Position numbers and translations under genes: made by a program. From assembly GCA_027489095.1 (NCBI GenBank), contig JAIYAL010000084.1, positions 1 to 40,598 on the forward strand: a DNA stretch of 40,598 nt, given 5' to 3'. Positions 11,740 through 28,904 of the stretch are shown here, one piece after another (the stretch's first letter is position 1; each line of letters opens with the position of its first letter). This DNA comes from Erythrobacteraceae bacterium. Lineage in GTDB: Bacteria > Pseudomonadota > Alphaproteobacteria > Sphingomonadales > Sphingomonadaceae. The notes under the pieces were generated by a model. The model searched no databases, was not told the origin of the DNA, and worked only from the letters and a program-made list of their open reading frames with translations.

Positions 11740-12207
11740 TTAAACCAGAACCTCGATTTCGCGATGGGCGGTATCCGGCCCGGCGAGCAGCGCGGCAAGA
11801 TCGACCAGCAGCGCGGGCCCGGCCATGGTCTCGATCATCCCGGTGGCGATGCGTGACCATTCGGGGCCGAAGCCCCCCGGCACCTGCCCTGCATCGCTGG
11901 CGCCGGTGGTGATGTCCTCGATCACATCGACGAGCAGCGCGTAGGAATGGCCCCCTTCCGCGACGACGATCGCGCGGTGGTCGGTCGGCCACTCGCTTCC
12001 CGGCAGGCCGATCCCAAACCCAATCGCGCGGCGGCAATCGATCACGGTCAGCGCCTGGCTGCGCAGCGCGGTGATTCCGGCGATCCACGCCGGCGCGCGC
12101 GGGATCGGGGTGACGGTGCCGATCTCGATCACCGATTTGACGTCGAGCGCCGAGAGCGCGCAGGCGCGCCCCGCGATCCGGGCGACGACGAGCAGTTGTC
12201 CGATCAT
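11740..12207 (-). CDS. cheW: chemotaxis coupling protein CheW
   Basis: MIGQLLVVARIAGRACALSALDVKSVIE...IPRAPAWIAGITALRSQALTVIDCRRAIG; ATGA overlap with the cheA stop; shorter than the 11740..12486 ORF. Confidence 0.9.
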   Translation of the reverse strand: MIGQLLVVARIAGRACALSALDVKSVIEIGTVTPIPRAPAWIAGITALRSQALTVIDCRRAIGFGIGLPGSEWPTDHRAIVVAEGGHSYALLVDVIEDITTGASDAGQVPGGFGPEWSRIATGMIETMAGPALLVDLAALLAGPDTAHREIEVLV

Positions 12208-14651
12208 GCGGCAACTCCCTTGGCTTGAAGCGCCGCGCGGCTGGCTGCGGCGAGCGCTGCCAGCAGGCTTTCGCGGTCGTAGCGGTAGATCGTCTCGCAT
12301 CCCGTGGGTGCATCGGGCTGGTCGCGCAGGCGGATCACCTGTTGCGGAAGCGGGCGGCCGAGCGCCTCGGCAACTTCGTAGACATCGTCGAACAGAATGC
12401 CGAGCGTCTCCGTCCCGGCCTCGCTGGCAGGGACGATATCGTAACCCGCGGCGGTAACCAGCGGGGCGAGGATGGTGCGCGCCCATTCGCTCTCGGGCAG
12501 GGTGCAGCGCGGGCGGTCGGCGGCAAGCGGCGGCTCGCCGTGGCGGGCGAAAAGTTCATGTGCGTCCACCAGCGTGACCGGCTGGCCTGCAATCAGCGTG
12601 ATCGCTTCGGCGAGCGGGTCTTCCGGAACGGCGTGCAAGTCCTCGGTCAGTTCGACCGCGTCCTCTACCTCACGCACCGCGAAGAGCAGCTCGCAGGCCC
12701 CGTCGGACAGGCGCAGCAGGCGCACGCGGTTCTGGGTCAGTGGGGTGTCGGGCAGGCCGACCAGCGGCAGGATCAGCCCGTCGATGACCACGCGCGGGCG
12801 CGCAGCGGAGCGATCAATGGCGGTGATCGGCGCGGTCTCGATGCGCTGGACGAGTTCGAGCCGCACCGCCGAGCGGCGTCCGGCAAAATCGGTGAACAGC
12901 ATGGCCCGATCGGCCTGCTTGGCCACCTCGGCGGCGCTGTCGCCAAGCGTGCCGAGCACGCGCGTGCGGGTGTCGGAGACGAGGTCGGCGCCGGCCGCGA
13001 TGTTGGCGACGTCGAGCAGCAGCACTGGCTGGCCATCGTCAAGCAGGGTCGATCCGGCATAAAGCCCGGACTTCATCACCGCTGGCGCAAGCGGCTTGAC
13101 GACAAGATCGCCGTGGCCGTGGATGCCCTCAACCGCGAGCGCGAAGAGATCGCCGCTGGCGAGGCGCAGCATCACGAGGGTGGGTTCCTTGGCGGCGACC
13201 GGGCAGGCCGGGAGCCCGAGCACTTCGCCGAGCATCAGGCAGGGCACGCGGTTGCCGCGGAAGGTGACCAGCGCGGTCTCGCCCATCCGGGTGAAATCGA
13301 GCGCCTGGGAGGAGGCCTGGACGATCTCCTCGACATAGCTCTGCGGGATCGCGAAGCGGTGGCCGGCGACTTCGACGGTAAGACCGGCGATGATCGAGAG
13401 GGTAAGCGGGATGTGAAGGGTGAAGGCAGTGCCCTTGCCCGGGGTGCTGGTGACGCGGATCGAGCCGCCGACCTTCTCGAGGTTCTGGCGCACCACGTCG
13501 AGGCCGACGCCGCGGCCCGAGACGTTGCTGACCGTCTCGGCGGTTGAGAAGCCGGGCTCGAAGATCAGGTTGAGGATGCGCTCGCGGCTCATCGCGGCGC
13601 GTTCGGCGGCGGTGATGAGGCCGGTGGCGACCGCCTTGGCGGCAATGCGCTCTTCGGCGAGCCCGCGCCCGTCGTCGCTGATGAGGATGCTGATGGTGTT
13701 GCCCGATTGCCGCGCGGCGATGGCAAGCAGGCCGATTTCGCGCTTGCTGGCGGCGAGGCGGGCCGAAGGGCCTTCGATGCCGTGGTCGATGGCGTTCCTG
13801 ATGATGTGGGTGAGCGGATCGCGGATCGTTTCGATCATCTCGCGGTCGAGTTCGACATCGCCGCCGTCAAGATCGATCATCACTTGCTTGCCGAGCTCGG
13901 TCGACAGGTCGCGCACGAGCCGGGGGAGCGCGCCGAACAGGGTCTCGATGCGCTGCATCCGCATCCGGGTGATCGCGTCGCGCACGTCGGTCAGGATCGT
14001 GGTGAGCCGCTCGAAGGGCCCGTCGATGGTCGGCTGGTTGCCCGCCTGGCGCAGGCGGTGGGCGAGATCGTTGCGGGCCAGCACCATGTCCGAGACGCCG
14101 CTCATCACCCGGTCGAGCAGTTCGACCGGCAGACGGATGGTGCGTTGTGCCGCGGCGGGATCGGCGCGGCGCTGGGGGGCGTTCGGCTCATCGTTAGACC
14201 CCAGTAGCGCCGCCGCAGGGGCGTGCAGAGGCGGGTTAGACCCCTCGCAGGCCCCCTCCAGACCCCCGGTTTGGGGTGTTTCATGTGAAACATCCAGCAT
14301 CGCGATGAGACTTTCGTCGTCGCCTTCGTCGATGGGTTCATTCGCCTCGATCGCGTCGATCATCGCGGCGATCCGGTCGATGATGGCGAGCACTGCGGTG
14401 ACGAGCTGCTGGTCGGGATCGCGGCGTCCGGCGCGGCAATCGGCGAGCGCATCCTCAGCGGCATGGCTGAGGCTGGCGAGGCGCGGGAAATCGAAGAAGC
14501 CGCAATTGCCCTTCACCGTATGGACGAAGCGGAAGATCGTATCGAGACGCGCGCGATCGGTTGGATCGGCCTCCCAGGCGACGAGTTCGCCGCCGGACGC
14601 CTCCAACATCTCGCGGGTCTCGGCGATGAAATCCGCCAGCAGATCATCCAT
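12204..14651 (-). CDS. cheA: chemotaxis histidine kinase CheA with extended C-terminus
   Basis: P1/HPt (FRFVHTVKGNCGFFDFPRLASLSHAAEDAL), dimerisation/HATPase (DPLTHIIRNAIDHGIEGP, DDGRGL, FEPGFSTAETVSNVSGRGVGLDVVRQNLEKVGG) and CheW-like domain, followed by further CheW-like and degenerate receiver-like sequence. Confidence 0.94.
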   Translation of the reverse strand: MDDLLADFIAETREMLEASGGELVAWEADPTDRARLDTIFRFVHTVKGNCGFFDFPRLASLSHAAEDALADCRAGRRDPDQQLVTAVLAIIDRIAAMIDAIEANEPIDEGDDESLIAMLDVSHETPQTGGLEGACEGSNPPLHAPAAALLGSNDEPNAPQRRADPAAAQRTIRLPVELLDRVMSGVSDMVLARNDLAHRLRQAGNQPTIDGPFERLTTILTDVRDAITRMRMQRIETLFGALPRLVRDLSTELGKQVMIDLDGGDVELDREMIETIRDPLTHIIRNAIDHGIEGPSARLAASKREIGLLAIAARQSGNTISILISDDGRGLAEERIAAKAVATGLITAAERAAMSRERILNLIFEPGFSTAETVSNVSGRGVGLDVVRQNLEKVGGSIRVTSTPGKGTAFTLHIPLTLSIIAGLTVEVAGHRFAIPQSYVEEIVQASSQALDFTRMGETALVTFRGNRVPCLMLGEVLGLPACPVAAKEPTLVMLRLASGDLFALAVEGIHGHGDLVVKPLAPAVMKSGLYAGSTLLDDGQPVLLLDVANIAAGADLVSDTRTRVLGTLGDSAAEVAKQADRAMLFTDFAGRRSAVRLELVQRIETAPITAIDRSAARPRVVIDGLILPLVGLPDTPLTQNRVRLLRLSDGACELLFAVREVEDAVELTEDLHAVPEDPLAEAITLIAGQPVTLVDAHELFARHGEPPLAADRPRCTLPESEWARTILAPLVTAAGYDIVPASEAGTETLGILFDDVYEVAEALGRPLPQQVIRLRDQPDAPTGCETIYRYDRESLLAALAAASRAALQAKGVAA
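14194..14268. repeat. degenerate 10-11 bp phased array of YYAGACCCC-type motifs, inside cheA
   Basis: A of each AG at 14196, 14206, 14217, 14227, 14238, 14249, 14260; best copies TTAGACCCC, TTAGACCCC, CCAGACCCC. Confidence 0.55.
14277..14292. promoter_or_regulatory. parS-like palindrome, one mismatch, inside cheA
   Basis: TGTTTCATGTGAAACA versus parS consensus TGTTTCACGTGAAACA. Confidence 0.5.
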
Positions 14652-25867: not shown

Positions 25868-26758
25868 TCAGACCACCCGCCAGACCTCGCCCTCAGAAGT
25901 GCTGGCGCGCGCTGCGGCCCCACGCTTTTCGAGATCGAGAAGGTGCGCCGTCACGCTCATCTCGGCCGCGCCGATCAGGCGCGCGTCGAGGCCCTTGTAC
26001 ATCTCGGGGATGAAGCCGCTGACGGGCCGCGCGGCCTCGCCCAGCAGGCGCAGGATCTGGTTTTCACGCTGGCGGCGGTGGCCGATCATGCCGCGCACCA
26101 GCTGGCGGGGCTTCTCGATCGCGGCGCCGTGGGCCGAATGGTAGCGCACATCCTCGCGCGCCATAAGCTTGTCGAGGCTCGCCATGTAATCGCCCATGTC
26201 GCCGTCGGGCGGGATGACGACACTGGTTGACCAGCCCATCACGTGATCGCCGGTGAACAGCGCGCCGCTCTCCTCCAGCGCATAGCACAGGTGGTTGGAG
26301 GTGTGCCCGGGCGTGGCGACCGCGGTGAGCGTCCAGCCGGTGCCGCGCATGCCTTCGCCGTCGGCGAGCACGCGGTCAGGGGCATAGGTGGGGTCGAAGG
26401 CCTCATCCGATCGCGGGCCGTCCACCGCCAGCACCAAGGGCGCGCAGCCGACGATCGGCGCGCCCGTCGCGGCGGCAAGCGGCGCAGCGGCAGGCGAGTG
26501 ATCGCGGTGGGTGTGGGTGCACATGATCGCCACGATCCTGCGACCCGCCACAGCGGCGATGATCGCGTCGATATGCGCCGCCTCGTTCGGGCCCGGATCG
26601 ATCACCGCGCAGTCCGGCCCTTGCGGATCACCCACCACATAGGTCTGCGTGCCGGTGAAGGTGTAAGGCGAGGGATTGGGCGCAAGCACGCGGCGCACCA
26701 GCGGCTCGACATCTTCGGCAAGGCCGGTGGGCCAGGGTTGGGGAGGGATAGTGACCAT
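25868..26758 (-). CDS. MBL-fold metallo-hydrolase
   Basis: THTHRDHSPAA metal motif, VATPGHTSNHLCYAL, LFTGDHVMGW; start at MVTIPPQPWP. Confidence 0.92.
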   Translation of the reverse strand: MVTIPPQPWPTGLAEDVEPLVRRVLAPNPSPYTFTGTQTYVVGDPQGPDCAVIDPGPNEAAHIDAIIAAVAGRRIVAIMCTHTHRDHSPAAAPLAAATGAPIVGCAPLVLAVDGPRSDEAFDPTYAPDRVLADGEGMRGTGWTLTAVATPGHTSNHLCYALEESGALFTGDHVMGWSTSVVIPPDGDMGDYMASLDKLMAREDVRYHSAHGAAIEKPRQLVRGMIGHRRQRENQILRLLGEAARPVSGFIPEMYKGLDARLIGAAEMSVTAHLLDLEKRGAAARASTSEGEVWRVV

Positions 26759-26813
26759 GGCCTTGCATATGAAGTCCGGCGTGGCAGAAGTCACCCCCGA
26801 GAGAGGGGAGATC

Positions 26814-28286
26814 ATGGCCGACTACATTCTGGTGCTTGATGAAGGCACCACCTCCACCCGCGCGATCCTGTTCGCTTCCGATGGCGTGCTGGTGGCAAGC
26901 GCGCAGGAACCGCTGACCCAGCATTATCCGCAAGGCGGCTGGGTTGAGCATGATCCGCGTGAGATCTGGGACAAGACGCTGGCCTGTGTGCAAGCGATGA
27001 TCCCCAAGGCGGGCGGGGCGGCGATGATCGCTGCCATCGGCATCACCAACCAGCGCGAGACCGTGGTGGCGTGGGACCGCGAGACGGGCGAGCCGCTCAC
27101 CAACGCGATCGTCTGGCAGGATCGCCGCACCGAGCCCTTCTGCGCCGCCCTGCGCGAGGCGGGCCACGAGGCGGGGGTTCAGGAGCGCACCGGGTTGCTG
27201 CTCGACCCCTATTTCTCCGGCACCAAGATGCGCTGGATGCTGGACAATGTGCCGGAAGTGCGCGCGGCGGCGGAGCGCGGCACGCTGGCGTTCGGCACGG
27301 TTGAAAGCTGGCTGGTGTTCAAGCTGACCGGCGGGGCGGCGCATATCACTGACGCGAGCAATGCCAGCCGCACGCTGCTGATGGGATTGGAGGACGCGCA
27401 GTTCAACGAGGAGCTGTGCGAATTGCTCGGCGTGCCGCTGTCCAGCCTGCCGGGTGTGGTCGACATGGCCGGGCCGCTTGGCGTGACCGCCCCGGCGCTG
27501 CTGGGCCGCTCCATTCCGATCACCGGGCTGGCCGGCGACCAGCAGGCCGCGACCATCGGTCAGGCCTGTCTTGCGCCCGGCCAGACCAAGGCGACCTACG
27601 GCACCGGCGCCTTCGTGCTGACCTGTCAGGGGCGCCGCATCCCGCGCTCGACCAACCGCCTGCTCGGCACGGTGCTGACCCAGATCGAGGGCACGCGCAC
27701 CTACGCGATCGAAGGTTCGGTGTTCGTCGCGGGGAGCCTTGTCCAGTGGCTGCGCGACTCGCTCGGGATCGTGGCTGTCGCCGAGGAGACCGAGGCGCTG
27801 GCGCGTTCGATCCCCGATAGCGGCGGGGTGGTGATCGTGCCTGCGCTGTCCGGGCTGGGCGCGCCGCATTGGCGGGCCGACGCGCGCGGGGTGATCGCCG
27901 GGCTTTCGTTTGCAAGCGGCAAGGCGGAACTGGCGCGCGCGGCCTTGGAAGCGATGGCGCACCAGACCCACGACCTCGCCGCCGCCTTCACCGCCGATGG
28001 CGCGCCGTGGCAAAGCTTGCGGATTGACGGGGGCATGGCGGCCAATGACTGGATGGCGCAGGATCTGGCCGATATGCTGGGGCTGACGGTCGAGAGGCCC
28101 GGCTTTGTCGAGACCACGGCGCTGGGTGCAGCGATGCTGGCGGCAACCGGGGTGGGGATGTACCCCGATCTCGATACCGCGGCGCAGGCGATGCGCGGGC
28201 GGCTCAGCCGGTTTGAGCCGCAGATGGAAGCCGAAGTGCGCGATGCGCGGCTGGCGGCGTGGAAGAAGGCGTTGGCAGCGGCTTGA
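26814..28286 (+). CDS. glpK: glycerol kinase GlpK
   Basis: MADYILVLDEGTTSTRAILF, IGITNQRETVVAWDRETGEP, IVWQDRRT, GLAGDQQAATIGQ, TKATYGTGAFVL, RIDGGMAANDWMAQ. Confidence 0.96.
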   Translation: MADYILVLDEGTTSTRAILFASDGVLVASAQEPLTQHYPQGGWVEHDPREIWDKTLACVQAMIPKAGGAAMIAAIGITNQRETVVAWDRETGEPLTNAIVWQDRRTEPFCAALREAGHEAGVQERTGLLLDPYFSGTKMRWMLDNVPEVRAAAERGTLAFGTVESWLVFKLTGGAAHITDASNASRTLLMGLEDAQFNEELCELLGVPLSSLPGVVDMAGPLGVTAPALLGRSIPITGLAGDQQAATIGQACLAPGQTKATYGTGAFVLTCQGRRIPRSTNRLLGTVLTQIEGTRTYAIEGSVFVAGSLVQWLRDSLGIVAVAEETEALARSIPDSGGVVIVPALSGLGAPHWRADARGVIAGLSFASGKAELARAALEAMAHQTHDLAAAFTADGAPWQSLRIDGGMAANDWMAQDLADMLGLTVERPGFVETTALGAAMLAATGVGMYPDLDTAAQAMRGRLSRFEPQMEAEVRDARLAAWKKALAAA

Positions 28287-28331
28287 TCTGGCCGATTTGG
28301 GCGCTGTGCTGTGGCCCGGTGCCAGATGCGG

Positions 28332-28397
28332 CCAGACTCGCGTTAGACCGCTGCCAGACCCCTGTTAGACCCCCTCTAGACCCCCTCTAGACTGGCG
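28332..28397. repeat. 11-bp phased tandem array of YYAGACCCCYN motifs
   Basis: A of each AGAC at 28334, 28345, 28356, 28367, 28378, 28389 (exact 11-bp spacing); weaker AG copies at 28324 and 28400. Confidence 0.85.
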
Positions 28398-28407
28398 TCA
28401 GCGCGGG

Positions 28408-28423
28408 TGTTTCACGTGAAACA
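28408..28423. promoter_or_regulatory. parS: parS centromere-like site (ParB binding), exact consensus
   Basis: TGTTTCACGTGAAACA, perfect 16-bp palindrome identical to the conserved bacterial parS consensus; intergenic. Confidence 0.88.
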
Positions 28424-28442: not shown

Positions 28443-28904
28443 CTAGCCCAACCGTCCGAATTCGCGCCCGATCCGGTCCTGAAAGGCGCGCACCGGAGAG
28501 CTTGCCTCCAGATGCTGGCGCCAAGCCTCATCAAGGCGGGCGATGCGCCGGTGGAGCCTTTCGGTATCGGCGATCAGCTCCCGGGTTTCGGGCTCAAGCA
28601 GCGCAAGCTGCGTCTCGTCGGCGACGCGGTCTGGCGGCAGCGCGCCGTGCAAGCGCACCTGGCTCTCGCTGAGGTCGCCTGAAAACAGCGCGCGCTGGTT
28701 CAGCAGCCAGGCGAGCACGTGCATCATGCGGGTGGTGGTCTTGAGCCCCTCGGTAGACAGCGCGAGGCGCACGAAGGCGTCCTCCTCCGTCAGCGGCTCG
28801 CGCACGCCGGCGGCGAACACCGCGCGCACCTCGTCGGCCAGTACGAGGGCTTCGGTGTAGAGCGCTTCGACGATCGGGCGCGATAGGTTGGGAGTGCGTT
28901 CCAT
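28443..28904 (-). CDS. DUF1465 family protein (RcdA-like)
   Basis: RPIVEALYTEALVLADEVRAVF...VRLALSTEGLKTTTRMMHVLAWLLNQRALFSGDLSESQ; start at MERTPNL. Confidence 0.85.
   Translation of the reverse strand: MERTPNLSRPIVEALYTEALVLADEVRAVFAAGVREPLTEEDAFVRLALSTEGLKTTTRMMHVLAWLLNQRALFSGDLSESQVRLHGALPPDRVADETQLALLEPETRELIADTERLHRRIARLDEAWRQHLEASSPVRAFQDRIGREFGRLG

Follow-up and report, generated by a model that had tools for sequence, protein, structure and literature searches.

A phased array runs up to an exact parS site

Why does an array of AGACCCC units phased at 11 bp run directly up to a parS palindrome in the gap between two convergent genes, and is this arrangement peculiar to one locus or part of a larger system? 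Within the window, i.e. the whole 40,598-nucleotide stretch of DNA that was analysed, the features bearing on this question are the following:

28324..28407, + strand: phased array 1, with 11-bp lattice positions from 28324 to 28400 and six AGAC cores (starts 28334 to 28389)
28408..28423, no strand: parS 1, the exact palindrome TGTTTCACGTGAAACA, in register with array 1 and 19 bp from its last AGAC
14227..14276, + strand: phased array 2, with units at 14227, 14238, 14249 and 14260, antisense inside the cheA ORF
14277..14292, no strand: parS 2, TGTTTCATGTGAAACA
26727..28286, + strand: glycerol-kinase-like gene, glpK (FGGY_N, FGGY_C), upstream of element 1 and the marker of the orthologous site in relatives
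28443..28904, − strand: DUF1465 gene, convergent with glpK, its stop 19 bp past parS 1
12204..14651, − strand: CheA-type histidine kinase, cheA (Hpt, residues 3-101; dimerisation domain, residues 169-227)

Element 1 occupies most of the convergent intergenic gap between glpK and the DUF1465 gene. A first-pass annotation of this DNA had placed AGAC starts at 28334, 28345, 28356, 28367, 28378 and 28389, flanking AG copies at 28324 and 28400, and a perfect parS palindrome beside the array, all of which we confirmed. Its estimate of a ~10-bp gap between array and palindrome can be made more precise: the start of parS is 19 bp from the last AGAC and 8 bp from the lattice position at 28400, and parS thus prolongs the 11-bp lattice. 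The chance expectation for an exact TGTTTCACGTGAAACA in the window is 0.00, and the pattern AGAC-N7-AGAC-N7-AGAC (≤1 mismatch) matched five times as compared to 0.05 expected, a count reached in 0 of 100 shuffles; Tandem Repeats Finder called array 1 at 28331-28392. A second array-parS copy in the same window (14227-14292), overlooked in the first pass, falls in the cheA codons for the linker joining the Hpt and dimerisation domains. Scanning the window against Rfam returned a 5S rRNA and a tRNA only, with no match at element 1. These two genes lie at the contig start (1-298), indicating that the contig probably breaks at an rRNA operon.

Array-parS elements recur genome-wide in fixed order and register

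Treated at first as a local oddity, the array proved to be genome-wide, conserved and, in the complete genomes tested, regularly spaced. The window genome (a 3.32-Mb draft in 223 contigs) contained 83 forward parS-like matches with up to two mismatches, as compared to 2 for the reversed-pattern control, and 101 three-unit array matches, several of them per array, as compared to 1 for its control. An array was present at 58 of the 73 distinct parS-like sites collected, and the remainder belonged mostly to the trmE-gidA-parAB cluster and to a second site class. As support for its reading, the first-pass annotation had asked that most parS sites of the clade have an array in one orientation; this held for this genome, and alike for the relatives G261 and G418, but not for the origin cluster, the second dispersed class or whole species without arrays (G430, G475 and G472).

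The order of the two parts was one-way. In the window genome, a parS palindrome (≤2 mismatches) lay downstream of 54 of the 66 arrays examined and upstream of none, and the same held for G261 (33 of 46 arrays) and G418 (28 of 37), again with none upstream; depending on the species, ~18-28% of arrays in these three lacked a palindrome within two mismatches. Neighbouring AGAC cores were 11 bp apart in 146 of about 200 cases in the window genome, and the distance from the last AGACC start to parS was 17-20, 29-31 or 39-41 bp in most copies, placing array and palindrome on one lattice (11n+7/8 bp) with the same distance series in G261 and G418. When the 84,980 species of the GTDB genome collection were scanned with the array-parS gap left open at 8-38 bp, 83 stretches were returned, all titled Erythrobacter, Porphyrobacter, Erythrobacteraceae or unclassified sphingomonad or alphaproteobacterial MAGs. 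The 79 array-parS distances from these loci fell at 17-19, 27-30 and 37-44, some loci being orthologous and so inflating the Rayleigh value. This register is compatible with the earlier proposal that a second protein sits on one DNA face beside ParB, albeit not at every parS, as not every parS has an array.

Array copies resembled one another in motif and register only, not along their whole length, save for rare pairs. The great majority sat at gene 3′ ends, mostly in intergenic DNA: in the window genome, 27 of the 53 copies with both neighbours mapped lay between convergent genes, while those between tandem genes were oriented with the genes in 12 cases and against them in 8. Three copies lay between divergent genes, one of which is kept in three species (L090, L206 and L191). 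These three might suggest promoter-type regulatory arrays for nearby genes with an incidental parS, a reading we find scarcely credible given the prevalence of 3′-end positions and the systematic coupling to parS. Nor did the first-pass description of the repeats as iterons find support in the replication sense of the term, since the elements are dispersed and mostly at gene 3′ ends, rather than grouped at an origin beside a Rep gene.

The array is rich in C and poor in G, lies at gene 3′ ends, in many cases where two genes converge, and in some copies has a T-run before parS, features that could also be read at the RNA level, as a Rho-utilisation region (C-rich, with ~11-nt periodicity) followed by a 3′-end-protecting hairpin, together terminating the upstream gene. 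However, the arms flanking the palindrome showed no excess of site-specific covariation in a shuffling test, and the window copy had neither a terminator-like site in a terminator scan nor, as mentioned above, an Rfam match. Tandem copies in both orientations speak against such a signal as well, and it would leave unexplained both the exact parS sequence and the joint change with the centromere described below, making this explanation very improbable.

The dispersed palindromes change together with the centromeric parS

The canonical parAB genes adjoin gidA and have a parS cluster of their own. G418 initially looked exceptional in having 3 consensus parS sites as compared to 86 array hits. Its array-linked palindromes read TGTTCCACGTGGAACA, with two single-base variants, and TGTTCCACGTGGAACA is also found at seven of the eight parS-like sites of its parAB region. 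Dispersed and centromeric sites have thus changed together, which argues for a shared reader, namely ParB, and constitutes strong sequence evidence that ParB reads the dispersed sites.

The flanks of the palindrome differ between the two settings, being GCGR...TYGC at array-linked sites and AA...TT at the origin cluster, as might be expected if another protein, either ParB-like or an unrelated regulator, read the array-linked copies in place of chromosomal ParB. Against this stand the common change of both palindrome sets in G418 and the presence of a single canonical ParB match per genome, any further matches being much weaker; no ParB/Noc paralogue of comparable score was found in the genomes searched. 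We therefore hold a different reader to be improbable and retain ParB as the protein expected at the dispersed sites.

Elements are spaced around the chromosome

The complete genomes G261 and G418 carry 48 and 47 array elements, respectively, all round the chromosome at a mean spacing of ~63-75 kb. Their closest elements are separated by 13.4 and 16.8 kb; 5000 random placements yielded no case with so wide a minimum gap. The gaps have a coefficient of variation of 0.77 and 0.59, as compared to about 0.97 for random positions. When arrays and array-free dispersed parS of G261 were pooled (63 sites), a single gap was shorter than 12 kb as compared to 11.8 expected. The draft window genome contains several element pairs 3-12 kb apart (e.g., on C93, C103, C15 and C204), and the spacing rule is hence a tendency rather than absolute.

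Taking parAB as the origin, we counted 6, 6, 13, 12, 11 and 8, 9, 9, 11, 10 elements in the two complete genomes with increasing distance from it; a depletion toward the terminus, as known for Noc, was not seen in either. Only the array-free parS cluster sits at parAB; array-linked parS are not origin-confined. Array strands were split 11/11 and 13/13 between the replichores of G261 and 12/12 and 13/10 in G418. We rule out a polar guide function of the KOPS type, as array orientation has no replichore bias.

Cores, register and palindrome are under selection at orthologous sites

Comparison of flanking genes identified 24 sites that match between G000 and G261 on both flanks and share their orientation; G418 supplied additional matches. 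At the glpK site, inspected in 30 species, the element was present in the same orientation in eight and degenerate in a ninth; empty sites exist, and, G418 apart, the element was absent from species with few consensus parS. AGACCCC core identity was 78% for orthologous pairs and 77% for unrelated elements, while spacer identity was 50% versus 45% and right-flank identity 36% versus 32%. That core, register and palindrome were kept while spacers and flanks of orthologues fell to near the level of unrelated elements argues for selection on the former three.

These data also bear on whether the elements are MITE- or REP-like mobile repeats, copied into gene 3′ ends together with an incidental parS-like palindrome and passively retained. 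Their mostly intergenic location, with about half of the mapped copies between convergent genes, the empty glpK sites and the absence of elements outside one lineage are all in keeping with this idea. Copying has indeed occurred: two loci of one genome, L073 (~8755) and L078 (~10293), are near letter-for-letter alike in array and left spacer and not in the right flank, which suggests copying or gene conversion ending at parS. However, passive retention does not account for orthologues that preserve cores, register and palindrome after their spacers have diverged to background, for the over-dispersed, non-random placement seen in two complete genomes, or for a palindrome that tracks its own species' centromeric parS, and no match to the element was found in viral contigs, providing no sign of a provirus or phage origin. 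Copying may thus explain how the elements arose, not why they were retained, and the mobile-repeat account as a whole is unlikely. We favour elements that likely originated by copying and were kept by selection, duplication having apparently spread the family either ahead of its fixation or in the course of it.

Downstream of glpK, L341 (G399) and L342 (G443) carry a different repeat-like insertion, of the CCTCCCCATTCC type, at the same convergent site, which thus accepts other repeats.

A proposed role in chromosome organisation

The copy number of the elements and their spacing, with pairs more than ~13 kb apart in the complete relatives, point to ParB-loading stations all round the chromosome that supplement the origin-proximal centromere. 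Indeed, the elements probably serve as such stations, each a two-part site with a lattice for a putative second DNA-binding protein. The palindrome would be a genuine ParB site, and the 3-7 AGACCCC units at 11 bp would form a cooperative lattice on which the second protein always occupies one and the same DNA face with respect to ParB. At each station, this array protein would hold ParB in place or control its passage, perhaps by blocking sliding ParB clamps on one side. The window genome carries some 65-80 copies, which would operate in this manner. The stations would most likely bring the ParB partners SMC and MipZ, the latter an FtsZ inhibitor present in 14 of 14 genomes tested, along the entire nucleoid, and the even spacing of elements likewise suggests a nucleoid-wide role. 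The outcome could be loop organisation and/or nucleoid occlusion, with SMC loaded at many points and MipZ-based control of division possible. Sequence comparison supports the build of the elements in two parts, their polarity, register, conservation and spacing, and their change in step with centromeric parS; ParB occupancy, an array protein, partner recruitment and a cellular role are inferred.

Beyond the individual stations, we regard it as an evenly balanced proposition that the elements together constitute an undescribed chromosome-organising system, wherein ParB, from its role at the centromere, is loaded at 50-80 regularly spaced stations in helical register with an array partner, marking the whole nucleoid for control by SMC and/or MipZ. 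No earlier description of an array-parS element was found in the open-access literature searched. Among known systems, the direct repeats recall ParR/parC of plasmid R1, whose iterons are 11 bp long: in both cases, repeats of about this period could allow a protein to sit on a single DNA face. The elements described here differ in being chromosomal, present in dozens of copies and joined to a ParB site, and no parMR genes were seen adjoining those of the window. With the ParABS centromere they share the identical 16-bp palindrome and a canonical parAB beside gidA with its own parS cluster; what sets them apart is the number of parS, 50-80 round the chromosome, most with a phased array. The nearest analogue is Noc with its binding sites in Firmicutes, likewise comprising many origin-distant parS-like palindromes read by a protein of the ParB family. 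Here, by contrast, no second full-strength ParB was seen, the site is unaltered parS, sites also occupy the terminus half, and a phased partner array is added. REP and MITE repeats are similarly intergenic, multi-copy and partly copied from one another, yet the present elements are regularly spaced, stay in place across orthologues and have their cores and palindrome under selection. MatP/matS and MaoP/maoS also organise chromosome regions through short sites (PMC3330122, PMC5023128), though of different sequence, and the present elements are not limited to one macrodomain.

Published chromosomal parS sites cluster near the origin and number at most 20-23 (review, PMC7333895). In Caulobacter, an extra parS cluster is tolerated best when placed no farther than about 500 kb from its native counterpart, and ParB recruits MipZ, the foci of which are disturbed by ectopic parS (PMC5815017); parS added away from the origin harms both Caulobacter and Pseudomonas (PMC5815017, PMC7333895). 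If true, the proposed system would be the reverse of this usual restriction to a permissive zone near the origin: a clade with dozens of selected, spaced parS, most of them tied to a second lattice, would contradict the rule. Two questions would become open to testing, namely what keeps parS within the origin region and by what route a segregation protein can turn into a nucleoid-wide organiser, and the protein that binds the array would add a new partner to those of ParB.

Sampled species with many parS form one ParB clade

Across 100 species of the genus, the number of parS sites (≤1 mismatch) was bimodal, at 0-4 or 9-86, as compared to 0-8 in the rest of the family except for one genome with 14. 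Arrays exceeded background in this genus only, and there in a subset of the high-parS species; several species have dispersed parS and no arrays at all. Together with the arrays that lack a palindrome, this indicates that neither part strictly requires the other. The sampled high-parS species, plus G418 with its changed parS sequence, form one ParB group (support 100/99) on a long stem branch, and ParB of this clade has a one-residue insertion in the N-terminal domain (VRPHPxxxGY; e.g., L066:8196-9158). As species with few parS, with dispersed parS only and with parS plus array coexist in one genus, and the palindrome has changed throughout in G418, the evolutionary steps are directly comparable.

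In the second, array-free class of dispersed parS, a GAACA half-site is placed precisely at +6 (parS-TTTNNN-GAACAT), with 11 bp separating it from the inner half-site; among the sites inspected, this class never coincided with an array. It was seen in loci of G430, G475, G421, G261 and G464 (e.g., L107, L137, L140 and L367). Elsewhere in the family, g73 (G073 and G141, with 8 and 14 parS, respectively) was the only other sampled genus with clearly raised counts.
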